From contig FN649149.1 of assembly GCA_000310025.1 (NCBI GenBank), positions 327,348 through 391,347 of the forward strand: 64,000 nt of DNA, in the 5' to 3' direction. Below the pieces are notes generated by a model. It was not told the DNA's origin, did not search any database, and was given only the letters and a program-made list of their open reading frames with translations. Positions 15,701 through 60,700 of this stretch are shown here, piece by piece (the first letter of the stretch is position 1; every line of letters begins with the position of its first letter). This stretch comes from Ectocarpus siliculosus. Taxonomy: Eukaryota > Sar > Phaeophyceae > Ectocarpales > Ectocarpaceae. The position numbers were made by a program, and so were the translations under genes.

Positions 15701-18700
15701 ATCGCATGCAGCGGTCATGGCACCTGCGACGAGAGCGATTTCACGTGCAATTGCAACGATGGTTGGACCGCCGGAGACTGCTCCTTACGCGCTTGTCCGT
15801 ATGGCTGGAGCTGGTTCAGCTACCCGAGGTTTGTGTGAACCCAGTACTCCATGTAGTCGATCTTGCTGCGACGGGAAACGTAATACTAAGATCGGCCTGG
15901 GTACTTTATTCTCGCAGCCCGCCGCAAGGAACTGTACACACCTACCCGCTTCTACAGCTCAGTACTCCCTTCTTTCTATACCTGGTTGCCGTTTTGGTGA
16001 CAAGAGGGCCTCGAACGGGGAACACCGGTAGTGCTGATAGCTACCATGCCCTTCGCGCGTTTGATCTCAGTGCTGAAGACAAGGCTCACGATAAACGCAC
16101 CGAATGCTCTGATGGTGGATTCTGTAACGGCGAGACGGGAGCTTGCGAATGTGCAGATCTGTTTCACGGCGCTGCTTGCGAGTATATGATATGTCCAGGG
16201 GGCACCACGGACGCGTGTCATGGCCACGGGCGGTGAGAAAACATTGTACAGTAGACAGGGGAAGACAGAAGTGTGCACAGCTGCCTCGTGGTTGGCTTGA
16301 TGCTCAAGTACGAAGATCTCTACACCAGCAACACATGTCTGCCCGGGATTCGACCAATCGTCGTTCTCGGCTTCGCTTGTCACAGTCAGTTTCATAACAA
16401 CCAGAGCGTGCGTGCAGTTCTCAACAAACTGAATATCTGGCTACGTACGACTTTGAACCGGTCAAGCTTGGCAACTACAGCCCTCTTTTTGTGTATGTCG
16501 GATAGGTGTATGACAATGGCCGAACTGGCCACGTTTGCTGAAGACAACGGTGATGCTACGGACTACACATACGGGGAGGATCCTAATGAAGGCTCTACCT
16601 GGGATGCGCACCGAATATTCGGGTGAGCCACCGTCACCAAACCGATACGAACGCTTCGCACCCATCGTTCTCGCTGAGCAAGATGATGCTCAGAAGCAAG
16701 TCTGGGTTTAGGTAGTTCATGGACGATCGCCAAAGTGCCCGTGTTCAGCATAAACCGACGAGCTCTCGCCTGATTTCGTGATGGTTGACGAAGAGCACGT
16801 CACACGAGGGACGTTGAAATGATGTGTGATACGGAGCGTCACTGTGCGAGCGTAGGCCGTGAGTCGACGTGAGTCACAACACCTCAAAGAGTACAGAGTA
16901 CACCAGACCCAGACCATACAGTTTGGGGTGTTCGACCTGCTTCATGAAAAGGAAGGATGCCGTGGAATAGAATTCGAGAAGACAGGAAGAATGCGTGTGA
17001 CCTCGATAGTTTGGCTTTACCATCGAAGCTACCGTTCCAACCGTATTGCTTTAGTATGTTCTAGGTCGAAGGGATGCAGGAAAGGCTCTGGGTGATTTTG
17101 CGAAGAACTCGGTATCAACAAGAGAGACTACCGGAGATACGAGCCGTGTATCTTCCACGGGACCAAGATGTGTAGACGTACAACCTAACGGCAGTGGTGT
17201 ACTTATTTTGGTTACATTGAAGTACGGTATAGTGAAGTCACCGCACGTCAAGTAGAATCCGACCCCATCCGTCCCAAACGACTCCGTTTGGACACACCTT
17301 AATCATTCGCCATACCACCCACCGCCCGACAAAGGTGCTACTGCGACGACGGCTATTCAGGATACGACTGTTCTGAAAGAGTATGCCCTGTAGGAGATGA
17401 TCCTGGAAGCTGGGGGCAGGAGCCTGAAGTTCAAACCATGACGTGAGCACCCCTTGGCTCTGCTTCGTGTCCCCCACGCTGAAATAGTGTGTATCTCGAC
17501 AGGAATTCGAGTTAACCTCCGGGCATCGAGCACGTCAACGTTAACTTGGTGTGAACGGCGGAAAAACAAACCCCAACCCGCGCGCACAGTTTGATATTAC
17601 GATATTCTTGTTTGGTTACAGGTGCCAGGCCACGAACGGAACATTCACGCTCACCTTTCGGCAGGCCGAGACGGAGCCAATCCCAAGAAATGCCTCAAGG
17701 TATTAAAACTCCGGCAGTATCATCCACATTTGTACTTAAACAATTAGACCAACATTGTGGTGGTCCCCCAACCTTTTGGGGGGCCCTCTTGCCACTGGTT
17801 TTAAGAAAACCACTTATGCACCGCGACACGCAAAGAGGATGAAGACAAAGGAACAACGGAGAGCCGATAGTGCCGGTGAAAAAATTGAAACGGTACAAAA
17901 AAAGGCCACATACCGTAAACTACGGAGTTTTCCCCCCCTAGTAGAGCCCCGCCCCCCCCCCGCCCATTACCTTTTCGGCTTTGAAGCATGGTTCGTTGAT
18001 TTAGCCCCGGGGTAGATCGTTTCCGACAAAAAAAAAAATCTGCCCGGGTATTTCAATTTCCCCCCAGGGTACCAGTTTCCCACGAGTTCCCCCCGGGGGG
18101 GAAGGATGTATTTCCCTTATTTTCTGAGTCGATTTTGTTGCATCGCGGAGCACAAAAAGCATGATATGGGACGGAAAAATCATTTTTTGCAGATCTGCGC
18201 TTCGAGCGAGATTGAGGTGTACCGTTTGTCACTTGGCCCTTAGTTTTTCAAATTATGATCAAAAATGGCTTCGCCGTTGTTTTATGGGTGAAATGCTTTC
18301 GTTTTCTTGTCTGTTTCTTGCATTTATCATCCCTGGAGTCAGCTGAAGCGTACCATAGCATGCTGATGAAACCTTGCCCACAAAGGTAAAAAAAAATCGT
18401 ATTCATTTTTGGATCTCACAACTAACTCCAGGTAGAACCGAACCATAAAAATAGCTTTTTCCTGCGGACAAACTGCGAATTCTTGTGCATGAGCTTAGGC
18501 AATGGTACCTCTTGCTGTCTTTTTTCTCTTCGCCTTCGTTGCTCTTACGTTCCTCCTCCCTCTGCTTGTTGAACGCTTGCTCGTAAACCTTATCCATCTC
18601 AGTTTCGCCACTCTCTGTGTGTATTATGTGGACCATCATTATTCTGCACAACCCCCCGGGGGGGTCTTCTCCCCGGGGTAGCGTTGGAAAAAAATAACTA

Positions 18701-31639: not shown

Positions 31640-32418
31640 CAATTCGTTGCTGTAGGCTGGTGTCCTTGAGCCCAGAAATCGACGGTTGCCTTTGACCCGA
31701 ATTCGACGTTGTGTTGTCTCCGGCCCACAGCCTGTAGCCGAGAGAGAGGCCCTCATACAAAGAGTAGCACGCCCCCCACTGCTGCATGCACTGCTATTCC
31801 GAGCAGGTTCAGGAAGTGATTGAGGTTAGCAACAGCCCCAGCCAATACTCTCGGGACAACATGACACTCTGGCCGCAGCAACACCGCCGCCAGTGACACG
31901 GTTGTGCGGGGCTGTCACTGCACCATTGGTGGTCGGCTTGCTAGCGGGCAGCTTCGACCCGAACTTGCCGACCCGAGACGGCCGGACCCCGCTCCACCTA
32001 GCTACTTTCACGGGGAAGAAAACGCTAGTGTTGAGCTTGCTAGAACACGGTACCGCCATCGACGCACGGGACGCAACGGGTGAGTCACCACGTGTCGAGG
32101 CCTCCTACGAAGGGCAAGCAAGCTATCGTGGCGACCCTTCTCTCCAAGGGGGCCGCCACCAACCTCCGAGGAACCGTTCCGCTGTACAAATCTGCGCTCG
32201 ACAGAGCCCCACGAGAAAGTCACGCCGAGGCCATCGGTGTCCTTGTCGGGGGCGGGGCCACGGTGAGCGGGCAAGACAGTCGAGATTTCAACCGTGCTCC
32301 GTTGCGATGATTTGTCACGCCCGATCCAGGATGTCCAGCATCACGACTCTTCTTCTTGTTTCATGAAAGCTCATGCCCAAAGAACCTCATGACAGCACGA
32401 AGTGCCCCCTCACGTTGT
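31640..32418 (+). pseudogene. ankyrin-repeat copy E
   Basis: Upstream module from about 31645, ankyrin frame 31893-32108 (SFDPNLPTRDGRTPLHLATF, DARDATGESPRVEASYEG). One extra G in the run at about 32110-32113 shifts into the frame 32080-32310, which reads on uninterrupted: KGKQAIVATLLSKGAATN, LYKSALDRAPRESHAEA, GVLVGGGATVSGQD. It is the least damaged copy and shows that an intact ancestor carried at least three ankyrin repeats. The 3' part is nearly identical to 28659-28885. Confidence 0.75.
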
Positions 32419-32589: not shown

Positions 32590-33130
32590 AACCAAGTGGT
32601 TTTTGCCTGCGAGGCAAGTGCGAGAAGCACAACGAGCCAGCAACGGCGACGCCACAACCTGTCAGCCCGGGCACGAGACAGCAGCAAGCGGACGCGGCCA
32701 ACTTCGTCGAGCTCATGCTGCGAACATTCGCGCCCCCCGCCATTAGATGATTCGACAACTTCCGCGGGGTCTGGGCATTTTTGTCCGCCGGTGGATCTCC
32801 TGCTGGCCGGTAGATCTCCTGCTGCCATGGGGCGCGGACGAATCCATACTGGACAAAAATGCCCAGTCCACCGCGTCCTTCCGCCCCTGGACGCGAATAC
32901 AGGCTCTTTGTAGGCCTCGACAAATGGCGACTCAACCCCGCGTCCCGTACGTCAACGGATGCACCGTGTTCTACAATAGCAAGCTCAACACCAGCCCTTG
33001 TGCCCCGTGAAAGCAACGAGGTGGAGCGGCGTCCGGCCGTCTCGAGTTGGGGTGTTCGGGTCGAAGCTGCCCGCTAGCAAAAAAAGCCGACCACATTGAT
33101 TGGTGGTGACTGCCCCGCACGACAGTGCAG
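32590..33130 (-). pseudogene. ankyrin-repeat copy F (inverted, heavily decayed)
   Basis: Minus-strand remnants at about 33100-32900 (reverse complement of the RTPLHL and GxxxDARD region of the other copies) are interrupted by a palindromic insertion at 32763-32875. Only short stretches can be aligned by eye. Confidence 0.5.
32763..32875. repeat. palindromic insertion (~110 bp)
   Basis: Arms CTGGGCATTTTTGTCC (32771-32786) and GGACAAAAATGCCCAG (32851-32866) are perfect inverses, with weaker pairing extending outward to about 32763 and 32875. Two GATCTCCTGCTG repeats lie in between. Probably a small MITE or foldback element in ankyrin copy F. Confidence 0.7.
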
Positions 33131-34714
33131 CTGGCGGCGGTGTTGCTGCGGCCAGAGTCTCATGTTGTCCCGATATTTCAAAAACGTGTCACACTGCTGT
33201 GTTCATCTGTGTGCGACAAGTTGGACAGGTTGAGTTGCACTATTGAACGTATTCAACAAACAAAAATCACAAAAAGTATGGGAACAGAAAACAGAAGAAC
33301 TTTTCTAAAATTGGGCCCTCTCCGGGGTACCTTTGTAAGCGTGAGGGATTACCTCTGTCGCACACCCTTGACCGTCGGTTTGCTTGCGTTTCTTGTGTAT
33401 ATCATAGCTCGGTTTCATCGCCCTACGAGACCTGCGGTGTTGTATTGTCGATGTTGATTAGCACAAACATAGGATCGTCTTCCACGTTCGTAAGTAAGCA
33501 CCTCGCCTTGTCAGTACATACATGACCTTCGACCTTAATTAACCCACGCGCTGGTGGCCCTGTGCAAACTTGTATTTTTCCGTGCGTTCTCTTTTCGCTA
33601 TCGACCAAGGCGCGCAGCCGCATCCCCAAAACTCTTCCCTTGTGAGCTCCCCTATGTTTCGGTTAGCGTGCGAGCAGAAAGTTCGCACCCACCGTTCGCC
33701 CTTTCCCGGCTGGCCGGGGCCGTACGCGGGGCGATCAGACCGAACCATGGTCGACAAATGGGCTGGATGCAGACATTCAGTATCGTCCAAAAGGGGGTAA
33801 ATCACCAAGGTAGCAGGGTGCAACCGCCGACGTGTGGTGGCTACGGTGAAACTACGTTCCACATCTTCTCTCTGTAGTGGCATCCGGGGTCCAAAGAAAC
33901 AAAAGTGATCAGTTGTCGCACATACGATCGGTTGTCGCAGATACGACAACATACAAACGCGTCTTGCCGATTGTGTGTTGCATGCAGTCGAGGGTTCGCG
34001 ATAGTAGTACTGGTTTTGGTGCGGGTGCCCGGTTTAGTGCGGGTGAACTCGCTCGGAATAGACAGACCCCCGCCACGTGCGGAGACGGCACTACATTGTA
34101 CGCGGCGTCAGGGGCCCTGCTCTATCCTGTGCGCGGCGTCCCGAGACCACTAATGCGGGTCACCAGCCTCGCACAACCTCCAAAATACCCCGCAGCCCAA
34201 CATACGTCCGTGGCGCCGGGCAACGTTGCAAAAACAGTTGACCCTGCTCGACCAGTAGCAATTGTCGTTGTGTGGCGGTAGCGAGCCCGCCTCTCGTGAT
34301 TATCTTTTGTACACATACTCACATATTCTCAAGCCTCGTTCCAATGCGCTGCAAGAACTAAAACCACCAAATATTCTTCGCAGGACACGGGCACAGACAG
34401 AGGCGTCAAGCCCCTGGCTCGCCCAGAGCCCGAGGCCACACGCGGCAACGCTCTGTTCCCCAGACAAAACCCGTGCCAAAACTACGCAACCCGACGCGGA
34501 AGGGAGGGTGGAGCTACTCCATAACCAGCGCTTCCGCAGCCTTCACCCCATAGCACGCGCAGCACTTCACAAACTAGTGTGCCATTCGACGGGGGGAACT
34601 CTGCGACTGAAAACATTGCGCACGACATCGCAACACACACACACCTCCACCATTCGGCAACACACAAGACAAGACCGTGGATACCAAAATACCCTCTGGT
34701 TGGGCGCGATACTT
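33131..34714. other. no supported gene
   Basis: About 1.6 kb downstream of the VPS39-like gene stop. No exon was recognised. A minus-strand frame near 34322-34122 has a vague resemblance to the last part of gamma-COP but is not convincing. Confidence 0.4.
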
Positions 34715-37700
34715 TCACTCTCCAAGGTCAGCCGGCGACAGCTCTAAATCTTCCAACAGGTACTCTTCCATGAACCCCCCTCCCTTGTCGTACGCCGACT
34801 CTGCCATCCCGATCCCTTGCGCTCCTCCCGAACCGATGCGGGCAGACGTAAACCTTGCAAAGCAGGGCGGCACGAAAAACAAGTGTGGGAGAAAAAAACA
34901 AATAAAAACGTCGGCTTGTGCCACACTTGGACGCCTTCGAGTGAGGTTGCTGGCCGTAAACAATTCGGGGATATCACAGAGTCGTCTCCTTCACCAGGGA
35001 CAACTTGAACATTAGAAAATACTTGCCGTCCAACAGACCGCAGAAAAGCTAGCTCTCGATGGCAAAGAACAGAGGCACTGATGGGCCGCGCAGTTGCGTA
35101 GCTTTAGGCAGACAAACAAGGGAGAGAGGAAAATACCATGATCGCGATTGCTTCCCTCTACACTCTCAACATAGCGAATGCCATGGGAAGGGCCGAGGGG
35201 GCCGGAGCGTGAGCGTGCATGCAACGGTCGTCGTGCAAAGTTCGACGCTACAGCACCAATCCTGCTTCGACGACAACTCCCGTACCAATGCACCTACTCG
35301 TTTATTCACTTGAATCGTCACTCGAGGCAGGTATCATAGTCGTACCACCGGCAACACAAGCTGAAGACCAACTACCGCTGTACACCTCCTGCTTGCGCCC
35401 TGGACTCGATTGGGTGCGGTGGTGTGGTCACAACTAACCAAGAGGGAGACTAAAGACCTCACCTTAGTTCGCACATAAACAACACCGACGGCCCTCCGCC
35501 TATCCCTCCCACGCTCCCTCTCCCCACACCGCCCGCAGACGGCGACCTCGCGAGCACGGTGTAGCACGACCCCGAGCCATGAGGGGGCAATGCCGGAAAA
35601 TGCCGCTCGGTCTTGATCGAGTACAGGTCCGGGTCGCTACCAAGAGACGGAGGGTGGGGGGGGAGGGGGGGGTCGGAAGGCCAGGTCAAAGGCACTGGTG
35701 GTAATGCGTAGGACTTGAGGGGAAGGGATGGAAGTAGCGGGGAGACATGTGGAACATGACACAAGCAGCACAAGCCGTCGTTGTCGTAGAGCATTGAAGT
35801 TGTGGCACGACTAAAATTCCTGGGTGCATTTGCGGGTTTGTCGTGTTACGGAATACTTTGCCTTGGTTACACAACATGCACCGTCACCCGCTGGTGCCAT
35901 CTGTTTAGTCCCAATCAAACACAAAAAGGGACGCATCACTGCCAACGCAGGCCGAGCTCAGAAAAGAAAATGTGCATCACACTGAACTGGTCTTCTGTTC
36001 ACAATCGAGCAAGACAAAACTGGAAATTTAATCAGGCTCGGCGAAGAGTGTGACCGAGTCGACTACTAAACCCAATCGAGGAAGGACGACAAATCTTAAC
36101 AACTACATCCATACAATCGACAACACGTCACCTGCACTCCACTTTGACGAGGACGTTGTGAAGCCTCTGGTCTCTCAGCCTGTTGGTCACGTCGAACTGG
36201 AGCACGATGAAGGACTCGAAAACGTGCTTGATGCAGCCCACCCTTCGAAACAAACCAAAGTGGGGAAAAGCGGGAGGATAAAGCGCGACCACCCCTCATC
36301 ACGATCGATCGTCCGAACCACAACAGTAACACACGCACAAGTTGTGAGGGGAGAAGGGCAGGGATGGTGGTGGCACCCGACCCCCCTGGAACCGATTAGC
36401 ACCCGTGCCTCTCCTGGGAGAGGAAGCAACGGGAATGAGTCTGCCAAATCCCGCACCCCCACAACCACCATCACCCCTTGCCCTCCTCCCCTCAAGCGCG
36501 CTGTTCCGCGAACTGGAGACATGGGACAGGTCCCTCGTCTTGGAAGACACATACCAACGCTGGTGAGGAGAGTTGGTGTTGATGAACGCCAGGTCTTACC
36601 TCAGCAAAAACAACCCATGAAGCATCCAAGACCTTGCTGCCGCCACCACCGGCGTGAAAAGGAAAACGAAGAGCACGGTCTACAGCTTCAAAACATCGCT
36701 ACAGGAGTACCCCCTCCCCCCTCCCAAGGCTCCAACAGCGTCGCTTACCCGTAGTCAGCTGTTGGATCCGTGAGCTCGACGGGAGGACAAGTCCTGAGCA
36801 GCGTGCCAAGCTGGGGGAAGGAAGCCAGGGAGAGCTCGGGCACTCTGCTCACTTGCCCCTGCAGCTGAATCAGCTCGAACTTGACGTTGACGTAATCTGC
36901 TCGGCACAACTGGTGCGTCACCTAAGGGCAGGTAGGTGTGCAATCGAAATGAACAAGAGACAGTTGGGGGAAGGGGGGGTGTCAGACGGTATAGATATGA
37001 CGACACACAGGTACGAGGGGTCAGAAGCGACGTTGTGGAGATGGTGAAATCGTAACCCCCACCTCTTGTTTGATTTGAAATTCCATCACGATTGGCGGCT
37101 GATTGGGTGAACATCAACCACCGGTGGGATCCCGCGGCACGCATCACTTGCGACCGCCGCTGGAGAGCAGGGCGATGCTACAGGTAAGCTCCTCGGGGGG
37201 GCGTACAGCGATCTACGGAGAACGTAGAGCATGCGCGGTTATGCACGCTGTGTATTATTCTTGCAATCGAAACATAGTCCTCGCGAACGCGCACCGAGCT
37301 CCCTCATGCTACACCATCGATCGGCTTCCGGGGTCTGAGTGACGACATGTCCTTTCCAGAGGTAAAGCAGCAACAGAAAACCGTCTCGGGTGCTGGTGAA
37401 TAGGAGCGGCCACCCTCGCGGCCACGACGCGATCGCGGCGCCGGACTTCTCCTGAAGCCAAAACGACAACCAGCAACAATGACCATGAAGAAAACGCCAC
37501 AAGCTCCTTCGAGCATTCTTACACACGCACACACACATGTCGTCCAGCTTCCTCCGCGACCCCCCCGGCCGAGAGACCCCTATCATGAGCAAGAACGTTC
37601 TCCGCATTTGCAATACCTCTGACGCATTTTCATTGATGAGCTGGTTAGCGCGGTCGGTACATACTTATCAAAGAAATGCACGAAACACACAACAGCGCGT

Positions 37701-40700
37701 GTTCGCGGTACTCTTTCGCGCTGTTAAAACTCACGCATTCCCCAATGGTCAGCGTGGTCAACGCTAACTAAACACGCACCTGGTTGCTCCGCCTCCTTGC
37801 CTCCGCGTGCCTGACCGCCGAGGAGAGAAAAGGAACAAGCTTCGACACCGGGACACTCGGCGGCAGCAACGCCATGACCTTGACCGGATCAACCCTGGAG
37901 AAATGCCTCTCTAGTAGGGAAACCGCCTCGTCCAGACCTCCGACCTCCTCTCCGACAGCAGCGACGCCGTCGTCGGAAACCTTGAGGCTCGAAGGCGATC
38001 CAGCCTTGCTCTGGGCAGGGTGGTGGCCTCCTGCTTTGTTTTGGCCTTGGAGGTACACCTTCAGGAGAAAAAGGTACACCTCTTCGTCCGGGGATGGTGT
38101 CGCGGTTGCGGCGTCTAACGCGAAAAAAAAGATATGGTACACGAAAGAAGGAGCGCATTCGGTTCTTACAAGGGAGGCTTATGCGAAGACGGTGTTGGAG
38201 GTGGTTTCCATGTTCGCGTTGTTAGCGCTGCACCGGAAGTTGTACAAGGAGAGGGGCTGATTTCCGGGAACAAAACACGGCAAAGCCTTTTTGGTCGTGA
38301 ACCGTCATGCGGACAACCACATCGGGTGGTACAGAGCGTTCGCAGCAGTCACACGAACACCCCAACTCGGAACTCCATCCCGGAGGGTGGCATGGAAAGC
38401 GCACTCGCCTGCTGGCGCGCCCCGTTTGGCTGTACTCTTCGCCTTGGCAGCGCTCTCGCACCTCTCCCATATTCGTCCGCAGTACGCCTCCGCCATCTCT
38501 CGGTTCTTGAGCTGCCAAGTAGAACCAAAACAACAGCGGGTCGGGGACGTCGGGGTAGCATCCCGACAGAATAAGGGACACGCCCAAATTTACCCGAAAG
38601 GGTGGGCCACTCCAAGAAACGACAACTGTGCGTGCTGCTGCACCGCTATTGGTAGGGACATGTTGGAACCGCACGTTCCCTGAGCCCTCTTTGCCAAGGG
38701 CGGCTTCGCACAAACCTGTCTGACGTAGATGTGCAACACTTCCTCGTGTCTCCCCAGCCTCGACAGGAGCAAGGCATGCTCCTCCAAGAAGTGCGAAGGG
38801 ATCACCGACAGCAAGCGCGCGGGGTTGTACTTCTCGCTCGTCTTGGATGGCCGTCGTAATCGTGATCGTTGTCGTCGACGTTGTCGTTGCGGTGTTGTCC
38901 ATGTCGGTGAAACGCGGAGGGCAGAGCGAGGAGCGTTAAGCAGCGAGCGAGAACGGAACGCAAACAACGGGGACGGGGGAACCACGACAGAAAACCAATA
39001 TGGAAGCCCAGAGAAGCACAGGGTCACTTACGGCTCTCCCGAGCAACATGGTTCGCCCTTGCCGAATGCGTACACCAAACTAACCAGCTAGAACATACAT
39101 TTGCCAGTCGGCCTGTTCCAAATCTACGAATGTGGAAGTGGGAAACGCGGGAAGGGCTTCCCCACCCACCGCTCGCGGCTTATAACCTACAGCCAAGCGA
39201 CGTTCAGGTCGCGGTTCAAACAGAGTTTGATCTACTCATCCACTCACCTGCAAGAATAGCTGCAAGCGTTGTCTGTAAGCCGCTGCCAGACCGTTCTTGT
39301 CCTTCGCGATATTCTTGGAGGAACCGAGCCTTCTCGAGCTCTGGCCTCGATCCGCTGCCGCTCCCTGCTCCACCTTTGGCGACGTTTAGCACCGGAGATC
39401 AAACCGTCATCGAAGTAAAAAAAAAAAATGGGTACTTTCCGTGTGTATTCCACACATTTCGCGCCCGCAGCGCACTATCCCACCTCCCGACAAACGCATC
39501 CACACATCCCGACGAAGTGCTGCTGCCAGCAGGACGAGGCAAGCCGATTCCGTCGCCTCTTGGCGAGCGAATCAGGAACACACAACCCCCGGTGCACCCA
39601 AACACACGGAGGGCCCGAACCTACGGGGATACCTAAGGCATGCTACTATACATCCGTAGCCTCTTGGCGATCGAATCAAGAGCACACAATCTCCGTCGCA
39701 TTTGACACGTAGGAGGCCCCGAAACCTATTGATTCCATTGATGCGCAGATCGTTTCCCGCCCATCCTTCCCATCCGCCAACCCTAATTCTCGGTCTCACC
39801 AGTAGGCCCTCCATGAGCAAGTACGCAAGCTCGTCGTGCAGCGCCGAGGTAACTTCCCCCTCCCTCGCACCCCCCCCGCCTTCCCCACCACCACCCGCAG
39901 CGGCGTCTATGAGCACTTGCAGGTACCCGACAGCGAGGGCTCTGCCGCTCGTGAAAGGGATCGTCATTGGCACGGCCTGGCCCTCTTTTGCAGGTTGGGC
40001 GGCGGCAGCAGTGGCGGCGGCGGAGGTTTCTGCGTTCGCTCGACCAGACTGTGGCACCGATCGGGGGGTGGGGGTGGGGTGGGGGGGCGTACGGCACGAA
40101 TCTCATGGCAAGAAAGGGGAACATACATTAACAATAACATAATCATATCTGGCTCTACCCCAACTAGTCAACGTGAGTTGGATGAATGTACGCCCATACT
40201 TCCGCACCACATGTGTCTGGACCGCCTACTAGCAAAACTCCCACCAAAGCATTTCAGACAGCTCTGCAAGAATTCGCGTGTCTTTGGGCTTGGATTTCTG
40301 CAATCCGCACACAGAGGCCAGTCGGTGTTTCGGCTGCAGGCGCCACACCGTGTGGAAAAAAGAGGCACGTAGGCCAAAAAGCACAAGCCCTCTCGCGCAC
40401 AGCCTGTCCCTCTCGTCACGTGCTAAACGTTGCCGGCACCAAATGCACAAACTTTGTCAAAAAGGCGTCCGTCCAGGCCACGCACCTCGCTCGGGGTGAT
40501 GGTCTTCAGGAACGACACCACGTCGTGCGGGGCAAGGCCCGCCTCCGCCCGTCTCCCGTCTGCCGAAGCCCCCCCGGCCCTCCTGGAAACTCCGACCCGT
40601 CGCTGAGCCAGGAAACCGCCGTGGTGGCTCAGGCCGGTTGCTTGTCGGTGCTCGTTCAAGAAGACGGACAGGCCGAGGGCGGGGTCGGCTTCCAGCAGCG

Positions 40701-43700
40701 GCTTCACCGAGCGGAGAACGAGGGCGCGGTGCGCGGGTTCCGAGGAGAGTCGGAGCTCTCGGAGGTAGGCGGCGAGCCACCGGCGGAACTGCGGCGCGGT
40801 CCAACCCCCGCCGCCGCCGCCGCTGCCCCCGGAGTATGATGAGGAGGAAGGAGCGACGCACCTGAGGTTGGTTGGTTGCGGAGGTACGGGAGAAACGGGG
40901 CATGGGTCGGCAAAAAGACGCTGGGCGGTTGTTCTGGAGAGGCGGTCCTTAGAGGGAGGCCTGGCTCGAGATTCCCAGCACGGTGCTGATCGTGCACCCG
41001 TTCGTGACGAAGGTAAGACATGCCAGTGCCCTTCACTGCACCTACCCCGTCTTGACAACAACGACACGCGCGCTCGCCACCCCCGCTCTAATTCCTTCCT
41101 TCCCACGCCAAGACAACGGCGACAGCACAGCAGCAAGACTTCTTGATGACGGCTTGCCTGTCTTCCGTGGCAAGCGCCAGCGCGTCCTCGTGCAGGCCCC
41201 TCCCGCGGTAGAGACACAGCAGGGCCTCGATGAAAGAGGGACCGCTGGCGGCCAAGAGGGGTGCACAGGCTGCCAGGCTGCACCGGTTGGGACCGCTCAG
41301 AAGCTCCACCTTTTATTGCAGCGTTCGCGATGAGGCACGGAAAAGGCGTCAAATGCGTGGTTTGTTTGTGTGCTGAATGGGACTATTCGAGGGTGTCCCG
41401 ACTGGACGTAATTGCCGAAACGAGAGTCGAGAATTGGGGGTGTGCGTGCGACCAAGGCTGGTGGGCTACGTTGCTCCCATTGGTCGGCGGCACCAGAGCT
41501 CATCGCAAGTCTCACGGCTGCTTCGAAACATTGGTTCTTGATGCTGTGTTGTGCTCCTCTGTTCGTCGTCATCGCTCTTGCCCCGCTGCAAGCAAACCTT
41601 CGCAACCAGCTCGGTTTCGTAGTCGGCGCTCTTCCACGTACCAGTGCGCTGTGTCTCGGCGGGCTGCACTGCACGTACGACGACATCAGCATCGTGTCCA
41701 GCAGCACCAGGGTGTCTCCCGCCTTGCCGTCGTTATCGGAATTTCCAGAACCACCACCGTCGCCTTCGCCTCCGGCCGCTGGCGACGCCTGCTTCGAGTG
41801 CCGCCCCGGAGCACACAAACGTGGCGTTGACCAGCGGAGTGCAGCACCAACAACAGGGGGGTGCAGCAAGCAAGAGGCGTGTCTTTCACTGGGGTGTCAT
41901 AGAGAAAAAAAAACTACAAACGCTCGAGAGAACGTACAACCTAGAAAGTTCCCCTAAACACGCCGGACGAAAAGGACCGCCTGACTCTTCCCACCACAAC
42001 ACCGACCAGCAAGGTGCGTACATAAGTCCTACCATAGGTCCTTGCAAGCGGAGTGTGACCTCACTGACTGACATGCTTGGAAAAGCGGCGGCATGAAAAA
42101 ATCAACCAACAACTCACCTCGGCTGGGCCGTCGGCATCTTCGGCATCATCGGCCTTCTGACAGTCTTCCCGTTCAGCCGCGGCCAATATCGCAGGCCTGT
42201 GTCTCTCGAGAAACGTCATGACTGCGCTAGCCGCACGGCTCCGCGAGACCTGTAGGCACGCGCCAGCAATGAGTGGAGACGTCCAGATATCAAGAAAAAA
42301 GTGCGTGCTTGCGTACTATCTGCTACTAAGTACTTTTTTGTCACATGTAATACATGTCCTACACTTTTGATCTCGGCACAAAACAGTTCCGAGGCCTCCC
42401 TCCCGGTGTATTGCTTGCGATCGCCCCGCACGCAGCACGCCAAACCTGATGCACTGCCGCCATGCGTTCTGTAGGAGCATACAATCATTCCCATGGCGGC
42501 CCTCGAGGTCTTTATTGAGGGGCGTTCGTTCAACGGGGGCAGGACTTAAACGGTACAACTTCTCCTACGGTCCACCTTTACCGATCAACATGTTTTGCCG
42601 TTATCCCAGACGTCACACCAGGTTCGACTACATAGACGATCACACACTCAAAAAGCCCGCAGGCAAGCACACCAACGCATGTTTGTACCGCTACGAGAAA
42701 CGCAGACGGCATTGTTGCGGCGGTAATCCACTTACCCCCGTGAGCTGCCTAGGAGGCTCGCCAGACGATGTCGGACCTTTCTTCGGAGTATTGGGCCCTG
42801 TGAATCAAGACCATTGCAGACAAGTCGGGGGTGGACACATACCCCCAAGACAGATACAATAGTGTCATGCCTCAGACGTGCTACGCGGTCCCACCAGTCG
42901 CGGGACAAGATAAATAGGCCGAAAAAGAAAACTTCAGGGGATGTATTGTGATGCTTACAAGGGCGCTTCGCGGCGTACCGCTTCGCGTAGGCTGCATGGC
43001 GATGTCAAGTGTGTGTAGGTCGAATTTTGAGATGAGAGAAAAGAGACAGAAGTGTAGCACATGTATGTGAAAAGATGGTGGGCTTATTTGATTTGTTCGA
43101 TGAGATGAACTAATGAAGGCCAGAGGACAGAGAGGAAAACATGCACATGTGGCAAGCGGCAAGAAACCAACACCGCAGCAAGAACAATGTCCATAGTTAG
43201 TTGTATGCATGCTGAGACCATGCACCGAAATGAACGTGTTTGTGCCGCCTCAACACCACACCGGAAACTAAATGTTGGAAATGCATGCATACATACGGGT
43301 GAGGAGCAAAACAAATAATTCGATGCATCATCATCATCATCATCATCATCATCTCTTCCTCCATCATCCCACCCAGCAACTACACACAACATGTATGTAG
43401 GTACTTTCAAAGTAGATGTATCCGCATCAGCATGGCAAAAACCCACACTACTCGTCCCACAGCATATATATATATATATGCCCCGATGGGCCGGCGGGGG
43501 AGGACATTTTCCCCGATGGATACAACGCTTCTTGAGCAACACACTGATTTCTGGCTCCGAACCCTACACCTGCTGCTTGACGTAAGATCATCAGGACACT
43601 GGTGTGGCAGTTAGCTCTCTGGCTGGAGCGAGTTTTATGTGTAGAGGCGCCGATATGGGTGAGCTCTAGGTGCGAGGTCGGATGCCCTCAAGAGATCTGC

Positions 43701-46700
43701 ATGCGGGCGAAGCAAACAAATTGTTCGCGGGGTGTTCTTGCAACCGACTTCCTACAGAAGCATCTTTATCGAAAAAAAGCTCGCGCCGAGCTTCCAAAAA
43801 TAGCGCAAACCCTCTCGGGAGGGATCTATCAATATGCATACAACGTATGTTTTCCCTCTGTTTTGTTGCATGTTCTTGCATCACCCCAAATGCCGCGGTG
43901 CTCTGTTAACCCCGCTCCGGAGGGAGGCCTTGATGTGAGAGCCTGGTCCGGTGAGAACCCGGCGTGCTCCATCCCGGGTTTGTAGGAATGCGAGGTCAAT
44001 CATCCAACACTTATGGCATGCACGGCTATGAGTACACCCCCCCCCCACCACCCACCTTGTAGGCTTCCACCTGGTGGGACGAACTCAGGTGGGGCCAAGG
44101 ACGGGAAGAGCGACAGCACGTGGTCGACCGGCGTCTCGGCGACTAGGAAGTGCCCGACCGCGCCCTCGTAGTCCCCCCACGAGAACAGGTCGTAAGCGTA
44201 GCGCTCGTGGATGCTCAGGACGTTTACCGACCCCAGCACCGACATGTCCTGGGGGAGTGGAGTCGGGACGAGACGTGGTCCGATTGCATCGAAAAACGGT
44301 GCTCGATGTCGGCTAGCGTGGAGTTATGCTTAGATCGATCCAAGCACGGAAAATGAATTGGGTCGTCAGTGCTATCGACATCGACTGCTGCAACACAGCC
44401 GTCCAAAGGCGCATGTAGGTATATGATCAACCGTCGCGTCTGAGCAGGGTCTATCGGTACCAACACACACGTAGCGCGTGCGCCACTTTGAGCAGCATTG
44501 TAACGGTCACGAGCCGAACGTCGCCGCTACAACTAAAAGAAGGAAGGCAAAATGAAACGAGTACAGGTGAGCAATATTTCTTACAAAAACCACCACCTAT
44601 GCATACCAACGCATCAAATCTCACCTTGCACATCGCGCACAAGCTTAAGGCGTCTTCGTAGCTGCCAGACTCTGCCAGGGTCTCCACCTGAATAAAATAC
44701 GAAAAGAGGCGTTCGCTACGATGTTATGTTATGAGCACGCACACAAGACAAACAAACACAATCAACACGAGAGCGGCGAGCGAATTAAACTTTCAGTCAT
44801 GAGTCATGAGCATGCCAACCAACAGCGGGGCAGCGGAATGAGAGGGGAAATGTGCTCGCTGCAACAAAACACGAGACATCACCGCAAAACAGCCAGCGTC
44901 GGCAGTGGGCTAAACGGTAAACAAAAGAAAGAAAACAAAAAAACAGCAGCAGACAGGAACAACAAACCGCTAAATAAACGCCTCTCAAGGAACCTGATGA
45001 TGGGACAACCGACACTTGGAAGTTCCCGGCATGCAGCAGCTGAAACGACGGGAAAGTGTTGTACGTAGCTCAACACGACTTCACCTGAAACTCGATCGGA
45101 ATGAGCTTGAGAAGGTTCACAGAGTTTGCCGTGGCGACGTACGTCAAGTCGCCTCTCCCTCCCCCCACGGGGCATGTCGTCATGCAGGTCGCTCCCGGCA
45201 GATCAAAGGTCTGCAGCGGGGCTAGGCTTGCAAGGTCGTGGACTTCCACCTGCTCTCATGCAGGGTTTACATGCGTTCAGCCAAGCGTACGAAAAAGCAA
45301 GCACACGCAAAGCAAGCAGAGGCGAAACCGACAGGAGCGGTGGCGCGAAGGAAGAAGATCAAGCCAAGCACACACCGCTATTGCGAAGCGGAGCCGTTCA
45401 TGACACTTTCGACGCGTATGGGTCGCTTTCGATGGCCTACCAAGAGCTCGTAACATCAGTCATACATGGAGGAGAAAGCAGTGCATCCGATCAGCGCTCT
45501 ATTGGTACGGATAACAGTCAGCTTGTTCCCCGTCAAGGTGAAGCAGGCAGCCGGCTGCGTAAAAAGAAAATGGTAACTACATAGACTCATGTGTTACTTC
45601 CCCGTCCATCTCATCCCAACATCTACAAATACATCCCTAACGAAGTTAGGAAACTAAAACGTCTTGACCTCCCCCCCTCTGTCTCAAACAAGGCAAAAAC
45701 AAACACACTCCGTGCCCTAAGAACGAAGCCGTTCACAAGCCACACCTGGCGCGGCAAGGCCGCAACGAAGAAGGCCGTCGACAAGCACACCGACAGCGGG
45801 GGCGCGGTCCACGTCAGCCGCTCTTCGTGACCTCGACCGACCAGATCAACCAGTAGCCCTCGGGAGCCGCTGAAACACGCGCGCAAAGGGCCGATCCGGG
45901 TACCCCATGCACACACAAACAGAGGAATTAGAGGCATCTGCAGACGGTACGAGCTTGGGGGGCAGAAACAATCGGGTGTGCACCTGTCTCTTCGTAGACG
46001 AACGCAGATGTGCTTCTGTAGCTCGTAAAGTGAAACTTATCTCGAAGTGACAACATGGGTTCAATTTTATGACTATACACTCCATTGATTGCTACGCTCA
46101 TCGAACGCTTTTGTTGGGGAGCATTCAAAGGACAAAAGCAGCCCCTACAAAAACCATCTGCAAGTACAATACAACTAATGCCACTGCCATCATCACCACC
46201 ACCACCACCACCACCACCACCAACAACAACAAACAACAAGCGCGACGTTAACAGTATTTTAAAACCTTGAAAGGAGTACTCTTGCACCGCGGGCAGAAGA
46301 AGCCGGCACCGGCAAAATTACGCCGTGGCTGGATGACCCCCCGCCCCCCAGACCTGATATGCTGGACGTCCTGAACGGAAAAGGGCGAAAAGACCGGAGG
46401 TTGTGTTGGAGCAGTGTTAAACGACGCCGTCGCCGAACTCAAACCGCCGCACAGACTCCCAACTACATGAAAAGAAGTAGGCACGTCACGGAGGCATTTG
46501 CAGAGCTCTCATACTGCAGGTTGGTGTATAATCATGGGGAGCATAAGTGTTCACCAGTGGGGGTAAATGAGCAGTGGTATGTCGTACACTGCGTGTGCTC
46601 ACAGAGCACGGCTGCATGGCAATACAACCAGAGCGCTCAGGCAGGCTAGACGTAGCCGTTTGGCATCACAGCCGCATCGCTCTTGAACGCTAGCCCGTAC

Positions 46701-49700
46701 TAGGGCAACAGCGGACACCGAGAAATCTGGACTCACATGGAAGAAGCGCTGGCATCCAACTGGTCACGGTCGGACAGTAGCAGAGCAGGGCTGAGCGCGC
46801 CCGTGGTAGCGTCCATGACGCTATACTCCTTCCGGAGAGCGAGCACCAGCTACAGTAGATTGAGCGGCAAGGGATTGCGACAAGGAAGAGGGGCCGCGCT
46901 GGTCGTGGCAAAAACACAGATACACGCGTTTCGCATTTAGCGGAAACCCTACCCTCCTCTTCCCCTCCAAAAAAAACATCTCCCAGCGCCGTTCTTAGGC
47001 AACATCAACCGACCGGAAAACATCGACCCTACGAACAGCAGTGTACGGCATGTCCCGCAAAGTTGCATCTTCACCGAATAGCAGTAATGTACCCGAATGC
47101 GACCATGGCATAAAAAAGGCGCTCAGACTCTAAGGGTAGAACAATATAACTAGCAGCAGCAATTGGCGCATAGCGCCTGCACGTTAGCCGCTGCACCTTG
47201 GGTCCGGACGACCCGGCGGGACCGTCAGCATCCTCGGGCACGAGCGCCATACTTCTCGGAGTCTCCGGGAGAGGGAAGTCCCTTCTAGGGGCGAGGCTGA
47301 CCGCTTGCCATGCCAACACCTGCGCGCCGTCCACAAGGAATACAAGGAAAAGCAGCGGGTAATACCGACGGAGGCAACCGACGACATATTTAGGGCCCCT
47401 TTTTCCGTAGGTGAACGTGGCAGAAGAATCCTAAGGGCCGTGGTAGCTTTAGCCCGCCACAGAGTGCAGGCGTGAGTTCTCGGTTGACGATTGGGCCAGG
47501 GAGAGAGGACTCCAGAAAGAGAGCGAGCACGGTGGTGCCACAGCAAGTGGTCCGCCCGCCCATGCTGGCCAGTGGCATGTAGAAGATCCCATGTATCGTA
47601 TCCATCAGTGGTTCCACGAGTTCCCATGGTTCTAGGAACGCTGCTGCGGATCGGTTCTTCCTACACTGTGGATGCGTCCGCGTGAACCCTAATCTTCCAA
47701 TATAACCGCCATCCACACTACGCGATGTACCATTATCTGGCAACGTGGTGTCTTCGGACTGGGGAAACGCCTACACCCGCTATGGTAGACCCAACCTGGT
47801 TGTAGGGTGGGGTTAGGGTTAGCGCTAGGTCTGGATCGTTAGAGACTATGTCCCCACCTGAAGGCGCTTCTTGTTGGCCACGAACACCAGTCGTCGCTCC
47901 TCGTCCACGCAGAAGCAGGATGCCCCCCTCGTAGAGGGGACGCTTGCCAACGGGCGGTAGGTGTACATGTCGTACGCCGTCAACTGGGCGGGAGTGATGC
48001 GGCAGGAGACCGAGGACACAGCGAGGGAACAAACACGCAACGACAGTGAGGTGGATGAGGGTTTAGGAATAACGGTCTAGCGCAGGACGCCTTGAAGACT
48101 TAGCAAAAAGGACGGGATATCGGCGGTGAACAGCGTAATCCCTCGAGTGACAGGGGGTAATACGGGCTAGGTCTTGAAGAAAACTCGACAAAAAATCGTC
48201 ACTGAACCGTCACTTCAACGAATTCAATACAAGCTTCTTGAGTCTCATCTATACGGGTAACCCTGTTGTGACGTGTTGCGCACGTAAATGGTGTCATTTC
48301 TCTTGCACAAAACTGCTCTTAAAGTACCCCCGCTTCAAAACGAGGACTCATGTTTCGCCAACCTTCGCGGAAGGCTATTGGTTCGCTGTCATGCTCTTCA
48401 CAAATATGTCGTATCCCACAGCATTGGTCTCGTACCTTTGTTTGTTCCGAAAAACGACTACACAACGTGCACAGGAGTGGCACAAACAAAAACGCATTGT
48501 GAGCCTACCTGGCCATCCAGCAACCCCAGCAGCGCTCGCCACGCTTCGACGGCAAGGAGATCGAGCACCGGCCTTCGGTCCGAGCTGAGGCCTTTGCGGA
48601 GACTGTCCACCTGCCAGAAGTTGCCACGCGAATGAAAGCACAACGCAACCGCCACAGGCGGATGAGCTAGATCGTATTCGCAGAGTCCCCTCGCCCGCCT
48701 CTCTCATTCTCTCTCTCTCTCCCCCCCCTGAGGTCGGATCTAGTTAGCGGTGGCTAAATAGCTAGACCTTGGCGTTCATCACGGTTCACCAGCACTGCCG
48801 CAAGTACCATGTAGTGATGTACCTTCGGCGTAGTACGCGATGGGCTACAGCTGTATCGCAGCAGGCGGCGCTTTAGAGCTGCCACCACAGCACTAGTGAC
48901 GAGAATAGACCCCAAACCCAGCACCGACATACTAAACGCAACTGCAACCAGAGTACGGTTTACAGAGCTCTTGTATCACTAACGAAGCCCTGGAAGTGTT
49001 TATATTTCGTTCGGGTTCCATGTGGGCGACGAATTTAACCGTATTCTCGAGGGCATGCGTGGAACAAATTGGCGAACGTACAAGAAAGCTACATGCCCTC
49101 CATAGGAGACCGACACGTTATCACACAACAACGACTGTGGGTACCGCGGCAACGGCAACGCAACCAGCGGTGTCACAGACCCTCCTCTCACCTCGCGGCA
49201 CTCAAAAGAACTGGCTTTCAAAGCGTTCGGCGTGTCCCCGCGGCACTCGTGAGCTGTCAGGCTGCCGTCCCCGGCCCCCAGAAACATGCGATCGCCAGCG
49301 CTAACCACGGCGATGGTGCTCACCTTCGGCATAAACCATCAATGGGTCAACGGCCAACCAGGTTGCTACTGCTGTAGTGCTGTCTGTAGACGGATCTCTA
49401 AAGTCATACGCATACGCCTGTTTGCCTGCAAAAGCTTGCCCACATCATTCGGCGTTGCCGCAGCTGGAACAAATCCTTCCGTAGTAAAGAGCTGATTCAC
49501 AACAATGCCGGTATCGGCAGCAACTAGGTCTTGCGCCATCCCGTGGCAAATATTCGACAGACGGATGATCCTGGAGGTCTGTATGCCTTGACAACAACGT
49601 TGTGGTGCTCTACGGCAACGCATGCTGCTGCTGCACGCGTTGGAAGCGCGCCTTCTTGAGCCGACAAGAGGTTCCGCCGCATTTCGGGCATCGGGCAATA

Positions 49701-49988
49701 CTGCTGTACTGCTGTACAGCAGTAGGCCTCCGCACCTCTCTCTTTTGTGCACTACGACGGTTCTCACAACCTGCAGAAACGATTGCTTCGTGACAATTCC
49801 ACTAAGGCATGCAAAGTTGCACGGCGCAGGTTGTAGCTCTAGTGTGCCAGAGCTCGCCAAACAGGGTCAACGCGTTGATGCATGTACAACAACAGCAGCG
49901 TTTGTTCGCTCTCTGCATATAATCTGTAACTCACCTGTCTAGTGTTGACACCAAGCAAGGTGGACACCTCAAACGCTGATCGAGGCAT
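34715..49988 (-). CDS. VPS39/Vam6-like HOPS subunit fused to a gamma-COP appendage segment
   Basis: VPS39 tethers late endosomes and vacuoles within HOPS. Exons (high to low): 49988-49935, 49323-49192, 48610-48509, 47983-47858, 47319-47197, 46849-46737, 45869-45746, 45249-45085, 44687-44625, 44248-44056, 42249-42118, 41788-41642, 41309-41158, 40861-40486, 39976-39800, 39373-39248, 38841-38716, 38511-~38390, 38114-37780, 36909-36749, 36242-36132, 35636-35463, 34853-34715. About 1,150 residues. N-terminus SAFEVSTLLG and a CNH beta-propeller to about residue 313; then the helical region (IHERYAYDLF, VMTFLERHRPAIL, LYRGRGLHEDALAL, ARLLSVIPSHFLEEHALLL, EMAEAYC, VYLFLLKVYLQ, RVDPVKVMALLPP). The last four exons match the gamma-COP appendage (PPVELTDP, CIKHVF, VLQFDVTN, GSCYTVLA, LLEDLELSPADL). 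Uncertain: one phase mismatch between 44056 and 42249 (a small exon may be missed) and the donor near 38390. Confidence 0.87.
40862..41157 (-). other. candidate GC-AG intron
   Basis: Between exons 41309-41158 and 40861-40486 of the VPS39-like gene, phase and homology fit only if the donor is GACAG|GCAAGC. The acceptor is CCTCAG. No GT donor nearby keeps the frame as I read it. Confidence 0.6.
43325..43355. repeat. (ATC)n microsatellite
   Basis: About ten ATC units in an intron of the VPS39-like gene; a short (TA)n tract lies at about 43463-43480. Confidence 0.9.
43939..44046 (+). repeat. poly-C-tailed repeat, copy 1
   Basis: About 108 bp beginning GAGCCTGGTCCGGTGAGAAC and ending in a C run. 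It resembles 63821-63934 (GAGCCTAATCCGGGGAGAAC..., also poly-C ended). It lies in a VPS39-like intron, ten bases from the 44056 donor. Confidence 0.55.
46195..46222. repeat. (ACC)n microsatellite
   Basis: Nine or so ACC units in the intron between exons 46849-46737 and 45869-45746 of the VPS39-like gene. On the minus strand it reads as poly-Gly, which is why a spurious frame appears there. Confidence 0.9.
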
Positions 49989-57708: not shown

Positions 57709-60700
57709 CTACAGCACGGCCTGAACCACGATCACCGCAACCATGCCGGCATGCGCCGCGATAAGCACCTTTGCAAATACCGCTTGGCTTTGATTGTCCT
57801 CGTCCGAAACATCCACTAGAGCCAGGTACATCGAGAAACAAGTTATCCACCCGCCGATACGGTACAGCCACGCATCGAACGGGTCTACAAACGGCGACAA
57901 CACATCAGACACCGCCACGAAGATAGCAGCCAGCACCACCTCGATCGCTGCCTGCGCCGCGCTGTTCGGCAACAGAAAGGCAGCCAGCCCTGTCAACGCA
58001 ATCCGGTGACCGCACTCTACCACTTCGAAGTAGTATCGATGAGGCTTGTACGGAGCCCAGAGATCCCGCATGGGCTGCAGGTGGTCCAACTCCGGGACCC
58101 TTTCCAAGAAATTGTTGGGGGCGCCAACCTTGACGAGGTAGTGTCGGATAAAGAGGAGCCACCAAGCATAGAAGGCCGGAATGCCCACTGGGTACACGAA
58201 GATCATCAGACCGGCGTAAACCATCATCGCCTTATGGACACCTGTATAGCACGTGAGACTGTAGTCAGCCCGAAGGTAGTCCATCCCGGTATCCAGCCGC
58301 TCGCAAACGAAGGTTTGGAATATGTTGAAGGGCACCGAAGAGTAGACCACGAACATAATAAAAAGCGTGATCGAAAGATGCTTGCTTTTGGCAGCCTGCA
58401 TCCCGGCGGGGGAGTGCCGGTTACGGGACTTAGATACGGTGTACGTCACTGCTTGAGCTCCGAACACAACCAGCGGGCAGATCGTCGCGAAAAAACGACA
58501 TCCGTAGAAGTTGCTGTCGACGATGCATGAGACGGAAAGGATGAAGCCGAGATTGAAATTCACAACATTCAGCACGGACAGGAACCTCTCGTAGACGCCC
58601 GGGTACACCACGTTGAGCACAGAAGAAAACTGACGACCGACCAAGGGAACGGGAAAACGACGGAAAGGATTAAAACCTTGGCCAAACCACTTCATTATCG
58701 TGCCCTTCTTTGTCTTCGAAATAATCAGAGCCGCTGATACACACCCACACGCGTTAGGGTATGGAAACATGAGAAATATATCGCTGTAAGCATCATGCCT
58801 GGTGCGGAAGCCCTCGCGATTCACCACCGGCCGAATGCATCGCTGCTGTACCTGGAGGTAGTCCTACACGAAAAGTTAGGGGCGGATAAACTGTCCCACC
58901 CCACCCTTGCTCACCTGCGTGACAATCTGCCAGGCAACCAGGACGATCTTGATCGACGTGAGTGGAACGACGTTTGTGATGCGCTCTCGACAGGACGTGA
59001 GCCTCTTCCCCCATGTGAACGCCGGTGTTGTTCTCATCAACCACTCGGACAAGATCCGCGACCACCAGGGCAATGACAACCAGGACCACAAAGAACAGGG
59101 CTACTGATATGCCTGTTTCATGAACGACGTGACGATGGAGCGGGAGGGCGTACTCGTTGGTTGTTTACGTGAAGCCTTTCTAGGATGTCCGCATAACCCT
59201 TCCTAGACAGAGCATCATTTCTACACGATAGAACTGACAAAACCCTGGCCCTACAAGCTCTCCCCTTTCGGGAAATCCAGCAGTGAAACCCAGGAAACAC
59301 GGACGTGATACGAACCGAGCGGTAGTGACCCAAGAACAACATCGGCGAGGCGAGCACTTGTTCTGATGCTGGATGGAATAAATGGCCTTGTACCACATTA
59401 TCTAGTCTAGATGGCTACAGGTCGCCTGCTTTGTGCGAAATGCGTTGACGTAGCTGGGTGTTGTCTCGGATTTTTCTAACTTTTAACATGTCCTAAATAA
59501 GTGATGCGTACGGAGTTCTCAGAAATTATGCTCCTACATCTCTGCAGGAGCAGCAGTAGAAGAAGCAGGAAGAAAGTGCGTCTGTCTTTGTTTAGCTTTG
59601 AGAATGTTTGGTCGAACAGTAGCTGTCGTGGTCTTGAAGCGAAAAACTCCACCCAGCCACTCTTCCTTCATGTCTCATTGACGGCAAACATCCCTGGAAT
59701 AATTATCTCAAAGTTGACGCCATTTCCCTCCCTGAAGACTCAAAGTCTGCAACATGTGCGCGCCATCGTCGTATGATTTGCACCATGGATGGGCTGCATA
59801 CCCGCTTCTCTCTCCTTACCATACAGCTACACAATTCCCTCCCTTCTGGCCGGTGCGGATCTGTTTCTTGGAACTTCAGTTTCAGCTGTGTCGGGATGCA
59901 TCAGGACCGTTCAGATGGCCCTGCTATCCCTATTTCTTATGTCGGCTTCATTTCCTTTGCAGTTGTTCTTCGTTCTTTACTTGCTTGCTTCTCGCAAATA
60001 TAGCCTTCTTTCACTTGCCTGGACCCGTTCAAGTCCACCTTAGACAGTGCCTGAACCTGGTTGTCCCCGATGAAATCGGTTCTATCCTGTCAATATCGCT
60101 TCCATATACTTCTGCCACCCATACCATTCCCTGACAACCTTTAGTAGCGTTCCGTTGTCCCCTAGCCTGGTCCATAAATGGCGGCCAATCTCCTCTTTGC
60201 ACCCTAACACGCTACGTGATGACCATGATACCTAAGTCCCTACATAGTTCTGCTCACGTCCAACATACAACAACATTCATACCGGGTCTCACCACACGTA
60301 TTTGTTCAAGCTGCTTTTTTAGAGAAATATGTAATAAGGGAGTTGTACGGGAGAGAGAAAGCAGTGAAACATATATGAATGGAAGGGGGATGATGACTCA
60401 GCAAAGTTGTCCTCGCTCAAGAAAATCGATAGAGGCAGGTCATGGCTTACACTACTATTGTTGGAGAAAATCACGCATGTCCGGAATACCTGCGTTCTCC
60501 GAGCGCCTATGAAACCCCACGTTCGAGTAGAAACAGCAGCACCTGTTGACGGCTGCTCACCGATGAAGCTACAAACCACAACCGGTGAATCGAAGTCCTT
60601 CGAATTTGAAGTCGCCTTCACAACGCTAGCGGGAAAGGGTATGCTCTGATGCGCAGTGCAGTTGGCGTTCTAACGGCGAGGCTCTGTTCTGATGCATCTG

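Follow-up and report, generated by a model that had tools for sequence, protein, structure and literature searches.

After its last helix, human VPS39 continues through a short linker into a zinc finger. Gamma-adaptin and the GGA proteins (GAE) are trafficking proteins that end in a single immunoglobulin-like (Ig-like) ear without a platform. Such platform-less ears bind ligands, and appendages of the adaptin type combine an N-terminal Ig-like sandwich with a C-terminal platform that carries an FxxxW motif (PMC2262067). In the COPI coat, beta'-COP docks on a conserved base of the gamma sandwich, and the gamma-COP platform stays exposed for partners such as ArfGAP (PMC5482573). In the yeast HOPS complex, the Vps39 C terminus is held fast by Vps11 and contacts the Vps18 propeller (PMC9592082); what the VPS39 zinc finger does is not established (PMC7384125). 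Contacts between coats and tethers, as seen for AP-3 with Vps41 and for COPI with Dsl1, COG and TRAPPII, are non-covalent and involve separate proteins (PMC4868844). Here we describe a gene predicted on the minus strand of a 64,000-nucleotide stretch of the Ectocarpus siliculosus genome, which probably encodes, as one gene, a VPS39-family (HOPS/CORVET) subunit with a COPI-type ear, likely to bind a partner, in place of the zinc finger.

Gene model and domain architecture

The searched genome comprises 189 Mb in 492 contigs, and the window, by which we mean the whole 64,000-nucleotide stretch analyzed, lies at C455:327348-391347. The model was built on the minus strand by joining exons at splice sites. 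It contains 26 exons running from 49988 to 34715 (-), all of compatible phase, and its 3729 nucleotides encode 1242 amino acids followed by a single terminal stop, the TGA at 34717-34715 (-). Introns start with GT in 23 cases and with GC in two, and AG stands at every intron end. The first 22 of these phase-compatible exons (49988-37780) encode VPS39-family sequence. The five exons named in the original prediction are all present and join in phase, from 38114-37780 (phase 0) through 34853-34715, with two of them now extended. The chimeric exon, formerly placed at 36909-36749, starts at 36921 (acceptor ..CCCTTAG/GTG) and is twelve bases longer. The exon after it starts at 36242, which adds the residues VG so that the protein reads TADYGVGCIKHVF, and this sequence aligns without gaps to gamma-COP TEYVVRCVKH. 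Exon 1 is predicted and is the weakest part of the model, with no bearing on the junction.

Pfam searches of the joined protein matched CNH (PF00780) at residues 74-313 (expect value E of 4.8e-10, exceeding the curated cut-off), Vps39_1 (PF10366) at residues 539-607 (E 9.6e-7, 29.5 bits against a cut-off of 22) and COP-gamma_platf (PF08752) at residues 1077-1235 (E 1.6e-24, covering profile positions 11-151 of 152). The profile check suggested with the prediction places these three domains on one chain. Despite its Pfam name, we take the PF08752 match to be the sandwich, reading the domain order of gamma-COP as PF08752 followed by PF16381. The same scan found no match to an adaptin or HEAT trunk, to GAE, to VHS/GAT or any adaptin ear family, or to the platform subdomain Coatomer_g_Cpla (PF16381). 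With CNH and Vps39_1 making up the matches of its N-terminal part, the upstream strand carries VPS39 exons and not gamma-COP HEAT exons, just as had been predicted. Single-profile searches of the genome with CNH, Vps39_1 and TPR_Vps41 returned zero matches, the window gene included; they say nothing on absence, since exon-sized pieces are too short, and the window gene matches CNH and Vps39_1 once joined. When the ear was compared by phmmer with solved structures, the mammalian gamma-COP appendage was found (1r4x, 1pzd and 5a1u, with E from 3e-15 to 3e-14 and 1r4x best).

Codon scoring of the ear exons gave the predicted frame a log-likelihood ratio of +35.5 bits and the other two forward frames -52 and -40. 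One reverse frame is likewise positive (+26.1), so the coding score of the ear is supporting and not decisive. Negative scores were obtained in every frame for intron 22 and for each other intron tested.

The junction inside exon 23

Within exon 23, VTHQLCRADYVNVKFELIQLQGQVS is followed by RVPELSLASFPQLGTLLRTCPPVELTDPTADY, with neither a stop nor an in-frame ATG, so that VPS39 helix passes into ear within one open exon. The central claim of the original prediction, that a VPS39-like protein is fused in frame to part of a gamma-COP appendage, is supported. The peptide QVTHQLCRADYVNVKFELIQLQ, in which Q is the end of exon 22, matches the last VPS39 helix better than shuffled sequences do (P about 3e-4). 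The match to VPS39 stops at residue 1068, and the ear runs from residue 1070. Because the frame of exon 23 holds no ATG, the ear cannot start alone without an unseen upstream exon; its first in-frame methionine lies late in exon 25.

VPS39 homology and the zinc finger

The C-terminal solenoid is collinear with the C terminus of human VPS39 to the last helix (31% identity, E 3e-25), the human query being identical to PDB 6ze9 in its zinc finger part and an unverified sequence in the remainder. Exon 20 is 51% identical to this human sequence over about 40 residues. By exon-by-exon matching, the human VPS39 query matched only the window gene in the genome, and the window gene's own protein found no convincing paralogue; with matching of this kind, a further VPS39 or a VPS3 of divergent sequence could go unnoticed. 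A paralogue candidate on contig C2 was a weak match and was set aside as noise. Vps18 is encoded in the same genome.

The profile zf-Vps39_C gave no match in the predicted protein at E up to 1, with the human control detected at E 4.2e-19. Its motif was not found near the gene on this strand of the window, the downstream region included, and across the genome the profile gave sub-threshold matches only. The ear is fused to a VPS39-like protein as first proposed, but it stands in the place of the zinc finger and is not added to a complete VPS39.

The best zinc finger candidate in the genome, on C14, was rejected, as no VPS39-like exons lie around it. Zinc-finger-like strings below the cut-off of the Vps39 zinc finger profile were noted at L013 1210-1581 (C14) and at L018 (C457): VFVLHPRGSLVHRYC; CLLCSKRADDVFVVHPRRKQPSTC.

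The fused ear and the ordinary gamma-COP

The gamma-COP appendage first reported here proves to be part of one. Its N-terminal Ig-like sandwich is present, and the C-terminal platform (Coatomer_g_Cpla) is absent, the fused-ear sequence stopping directly past the LEDLExxxAD element. Across the genome, PF16381 has its sole match in the ordinary gamma-COP gene, which lies on contig C9. This is the separate gamma-COP that the original prediction had proposed to look for, and it carries HEAT-type exons, the sandwich, a EEGFEEEYPLEQLN end and the platform. Identity over 55-56 alignable residues is 39% between the fused ear and C9, 49% between the fused ear and 1r4x, and 51% between C9 and 1r4x. No intron of the C9 gene falls in the stretch matching the meeting point of exons 23 and 24. 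The gene does have an AG, a putative splice site, directly before its VPEL codons, so an exon border may have been the original start of the ear module.

A recent duplication of the C9 gamma-COP was rejected on the 39% identity over these residues together with the different intron layout. The fused ear is thus no recent copy; it is old, or has evolved fast, or came from elsewhere. That open frames and splice sites have been kept across this divergence argues for selection.

Table 1. Exons of the predicted fusion gene, with the donor-like site at the junction
Feature	Position	Strand	Basis or remark
Exon 1, start ATG	49935..49988	-	predicted, least certain exon; weak codon score
Exon 2, CNH-side N terminus	49192..49323	-	exon model
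Exon 3, CNH domain	48509..48610	-	exon model and Pfam
Exon 4, CNH domain	47858..47983	-	exon model and Pfam
Exon 5, CNH domain	47197..47319	-	exon model and Pfam
Exon 6, CNH domain	46737..46849	-	exon model and Pfam
Exon 7, low-complexity part	46266..46370	-	donor and codon score weak
Exon 8, CNH domain	45746..45869	-	exon model and Pfam
Exon 9, CNH domain end	45085..45249	-	exon model and Pfam
Exon 10, helical solenoid start	44625..44687	-	exon model
Exon 11, solenoid	44056..44248	-	exon model
Exon 12, short (33 nucleotides)	42959..42991	-	exon model
Exon 13	42736..42797	-	exon model
Exon 14	42118..42249	-	exon model
Exon 15, Vps39_1 domain start	41642..41788	-	exon model and Pfam
Exon 16, Vps39_1 domain, GC donor	41158..41309	-	exon model and Pfam, donor scoring
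Exon 17, solenoid	40486..40861	-	exon model
Exon 18, solenoid	39800..40048	-	exon model
Exon 19, solenoid	39248..39373	-	exon model
Exon 20, VPS39 C-terminal solenoid, KYNPARLL..LEEHALLLSRLGRHEEVLHIYVRQ	38716..38832	-	best genome match of the human VPS39 query
Exon 21, GC donor	38409..38511	-	exon model, donor scoring
Exon 22, VPS39 C-terminal solenoid, EVYLFLLKVYL..LLPPSVPVSKLVPFL	37780..38114	-	exon model and VPS39 alignment
Exon 23, chimeric: VPS39 helix VTHQLCRADYVNVKFELIQLQGQVS, then ear start RVPELSLAS..PPVELTDPTADY	36749..36921	-	exon model and VPS39 alignment
Exon 24, gamma-COP sandwich, GVGCIKHVFESFIVLQFDVTNRLRDQRLHNVLVKVE	36132..36242	-	exon model and homology
Exon 25, gamma-COP sandwich, SDPDLYSIKTERHFPALPPHGSGSCYTVLA..VLFMCELR	35463..35636	-	exon model and Pfam
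Exon 26, sandwich end ..GGGFMEEYLLEDLELSPADLGE and stop TGA	34715..34853	-	exon model and Pfam
GTGAGC donor-like site at junction	36847..36852	-	score 6.5 against 6.3 for the exon's own donor

Alternative explanations

What the sequence itself establishes is the chain of exons with its domains, the chimeric exon, the failure to detect a zinc finger or a platform, and how far the ear has diverged from the genome's own gamma-COP. Several points weigh against reading the locus as one gene for a VPS39-family subunit with a COPI-type ear. The exon chain is predicted from the genomic sequence of one assembly. The VPS39 part of the predicted protein is divergent, and phmmer comparison of this part with solved structures gave low-complexity or chance matches only, with no VPS39 among them. 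A profile search could overlook a small zinc finger exon interrupted by an intron. The comparison with C9 is limited to its 55-56 residues, much of the remaining C9 ear falling in an assembly gap, and searches of viral and prokaryote collections with the ear found no relative. Finally, a donor at the junction (CAA/GTGAGC, at 36852) equals the donor of exon 23 itself in strength and keeps phase 0.

The tether part may resemble VPS3/TGFBRAP1, which acts in CORVET at the early endosome, more than VPS39, which acts in HOPS at the vacuole, an assignment that we regard as possible though less likely. Across the 60 residues that precede the ear, an unverified human TGFBRAP1 sequence scores 35 bits and VPS39 32, and strong divergence within the Vps3/Vps39 pair has been described by Klinger et al. 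(PMC3785458). The helix of exon 23, however, scores 29 against VPS39 and 20 against TGFBRAP1, and the 51% match of exon 20 is to the human VPS39 query, although it was VPS39 and not TGFBRAP1 that served as the genome query.

The junction donor raises the matter of alternative isoforms, one a VPS39 form leaving at 36852 and the other a fused form reading into the ear. A GTGAGC donor-like site had been predicted at the junction and does exist there, at 36852 and not at about 36869. Its strength relative to the donor that ends exon 23 makes isoforms possible, but the zinc finger exon that the shorter form would use was not found downstream on the window strand, nor above cut-off elsewhere in the genome, and joining 36852 to exon 24 shifts the frame out of the ear. 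We consider such a pair of isoforms unlikely.

It is less plausible again that two adjacent genes have been merged by the model, a VPS39 ending near the border of exons 22 and 23 and a small, lone gene for a gamma-COP-type ear. An internal promoter is conceivable in the 858-base intron 22, and cryptic acceptors in exon 23, such as the strong one at 36810 (score 9.7), could serve some other upstream exon. That exon would have to be an undiscovered one, as the frame of exon 23 lacks an ATG; intron 22 is non-coding by score in all frames; no AATAAA occurs on this strand between exon 22 and exon 25; and the acceptor at 36810 retains phase 0 with exon 22, so that its use still results in a fusion. 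Least credible of all is a non-functional gamma-COP fragment brought beside VPS39 by misassembly or recent duplication: the gene is known from a single assembly, but a misjoin would need to land in frame inside one exon, the ear has kept its frame, splice sites and a near-full Pfam profile at 39% identity to C9 (56 residues), and its intron positions are unlike those of the ordinary gamma-COP gene.

Proposed function

If the locus is one gene for a VPS39-family subunit, the protein would consist of a CNH beta-propeller region and a helical solenoid, with a single Ig-like beta-sandwich replacing the zinc finger. It would be made as one chain and would join HOPS or CORVET through its solenoid. 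The sandwich would then serve as a small ear at the C terminus and dock a partner, in the way that the single-sandwich ears of gamma-adaptin and GGA do, and by this analogy a general role as a partner-binding ear appears likely. Taken together, the contacts seen in yeast HOPS and in COPI would place the ear where a HOPS propeller or a coat component could be bound.

Two partners seem the most plausible. One is a HOPS beta-propeller such as Vps18, in which case the ear would take over structurally from the lost zinc finger; by analogy, a propeller within HOPS can be put forward tentatively. The other is the beta'-COP propeller, to which the sandwich subdomain is known to bind in the COPI coat, and recruitment of COPI by the ear seems slightly less probable than a propeller within HOPS. 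Comparably improbable is that the gene represents an old, retained hybrid of tether and coat, in which a gamma-COP-type ear of early origin would dock COPI (for instance beta'-COP) or COPI-like components directly at the vacuole or endosome and so tie a coat covalently to a fusion tether. The linking of two traffic machineries, as in the original view, is one possibility among several: the partner of the sandwich might come from COPI, from HOPS or from elsewhere.

A tether carrying a coat ear would, if confirmed, show that coat-tether contacts can become fixed in one protein and that the terminal zinc finger of VPS39 is replaceable. As a single domain in a single protein, the ear would also provide a handle on partners of the gamma-COP sandwich outside the COPI coat.

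Other features of the window

Just downstream of the fusion gene are similar ankyrin-type pieces at 31830-32363 (+) and 32988-33188 (-), both containing PTRDGRTPLHL.., and their location on opposite strands suggests an inverted duplication. EGF-like exons occur at 12866-13420 and 15553-16233 (+), the first of which matches teneurin EGF models too. An open frame of 357 amino acids at 6079-7149 (-) matches the DDE_1 endonuclease (E 3e-29) and, weakly, a DNA-binding domain of Tc5 type, and belongs to a pogo/Tc5-like DNA transposon; one of 312 amino acids at 62204-63139 (+), with a reverse transcriptase match (E 3e-14), is probably from a LINE-type element. A hydrophobic open frame of 384 amino acids at 57712-58863 (-) has the look of a multi-membrane-spanning protein and no Pfam match.

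Comparison with known systems

Both halves of the protein belong to known families, and their combination is, to our knowledge, a new architecture. No description of a VPS39/gamma-COP fusion was found in the literature searched, a body that leaves most subscription journals outside it. With VPS39/Vam6 (HOPS) and VPS3/TGFBRAP1 (CORVET), the predicted protein shares CNH, Vps39_1, the solenoid and collinear C-terminal homology to the last helix; it differs from both in lacking zf-Vps39_C and in having the gamma-COP sandwich instead. With the appendage of gamma-COP (COPG, Sec21), it shares the motifs CxKHxF, QFDxTNxLxDQxLxNVxV and GxCYTxLA, the EEYxLEDLExxxAD end and a near end-to-end match to the sandwich. 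Unlike gamma-COP, it has no HEAT trunk, no platform and no FxxxW site, and its ear is carried on a tether and not on a coat subunit.

The ears of gamma-adaptin and GGA are similar in being single, terminal, Ig-like and without a platform. The ear described here is of the gamma-COP sequence type, and may work in a similar way without being a member of that group. As in the known coat-tether contacts, coat and tether are brought together, but here the coat domain lies within the tether chain itself.

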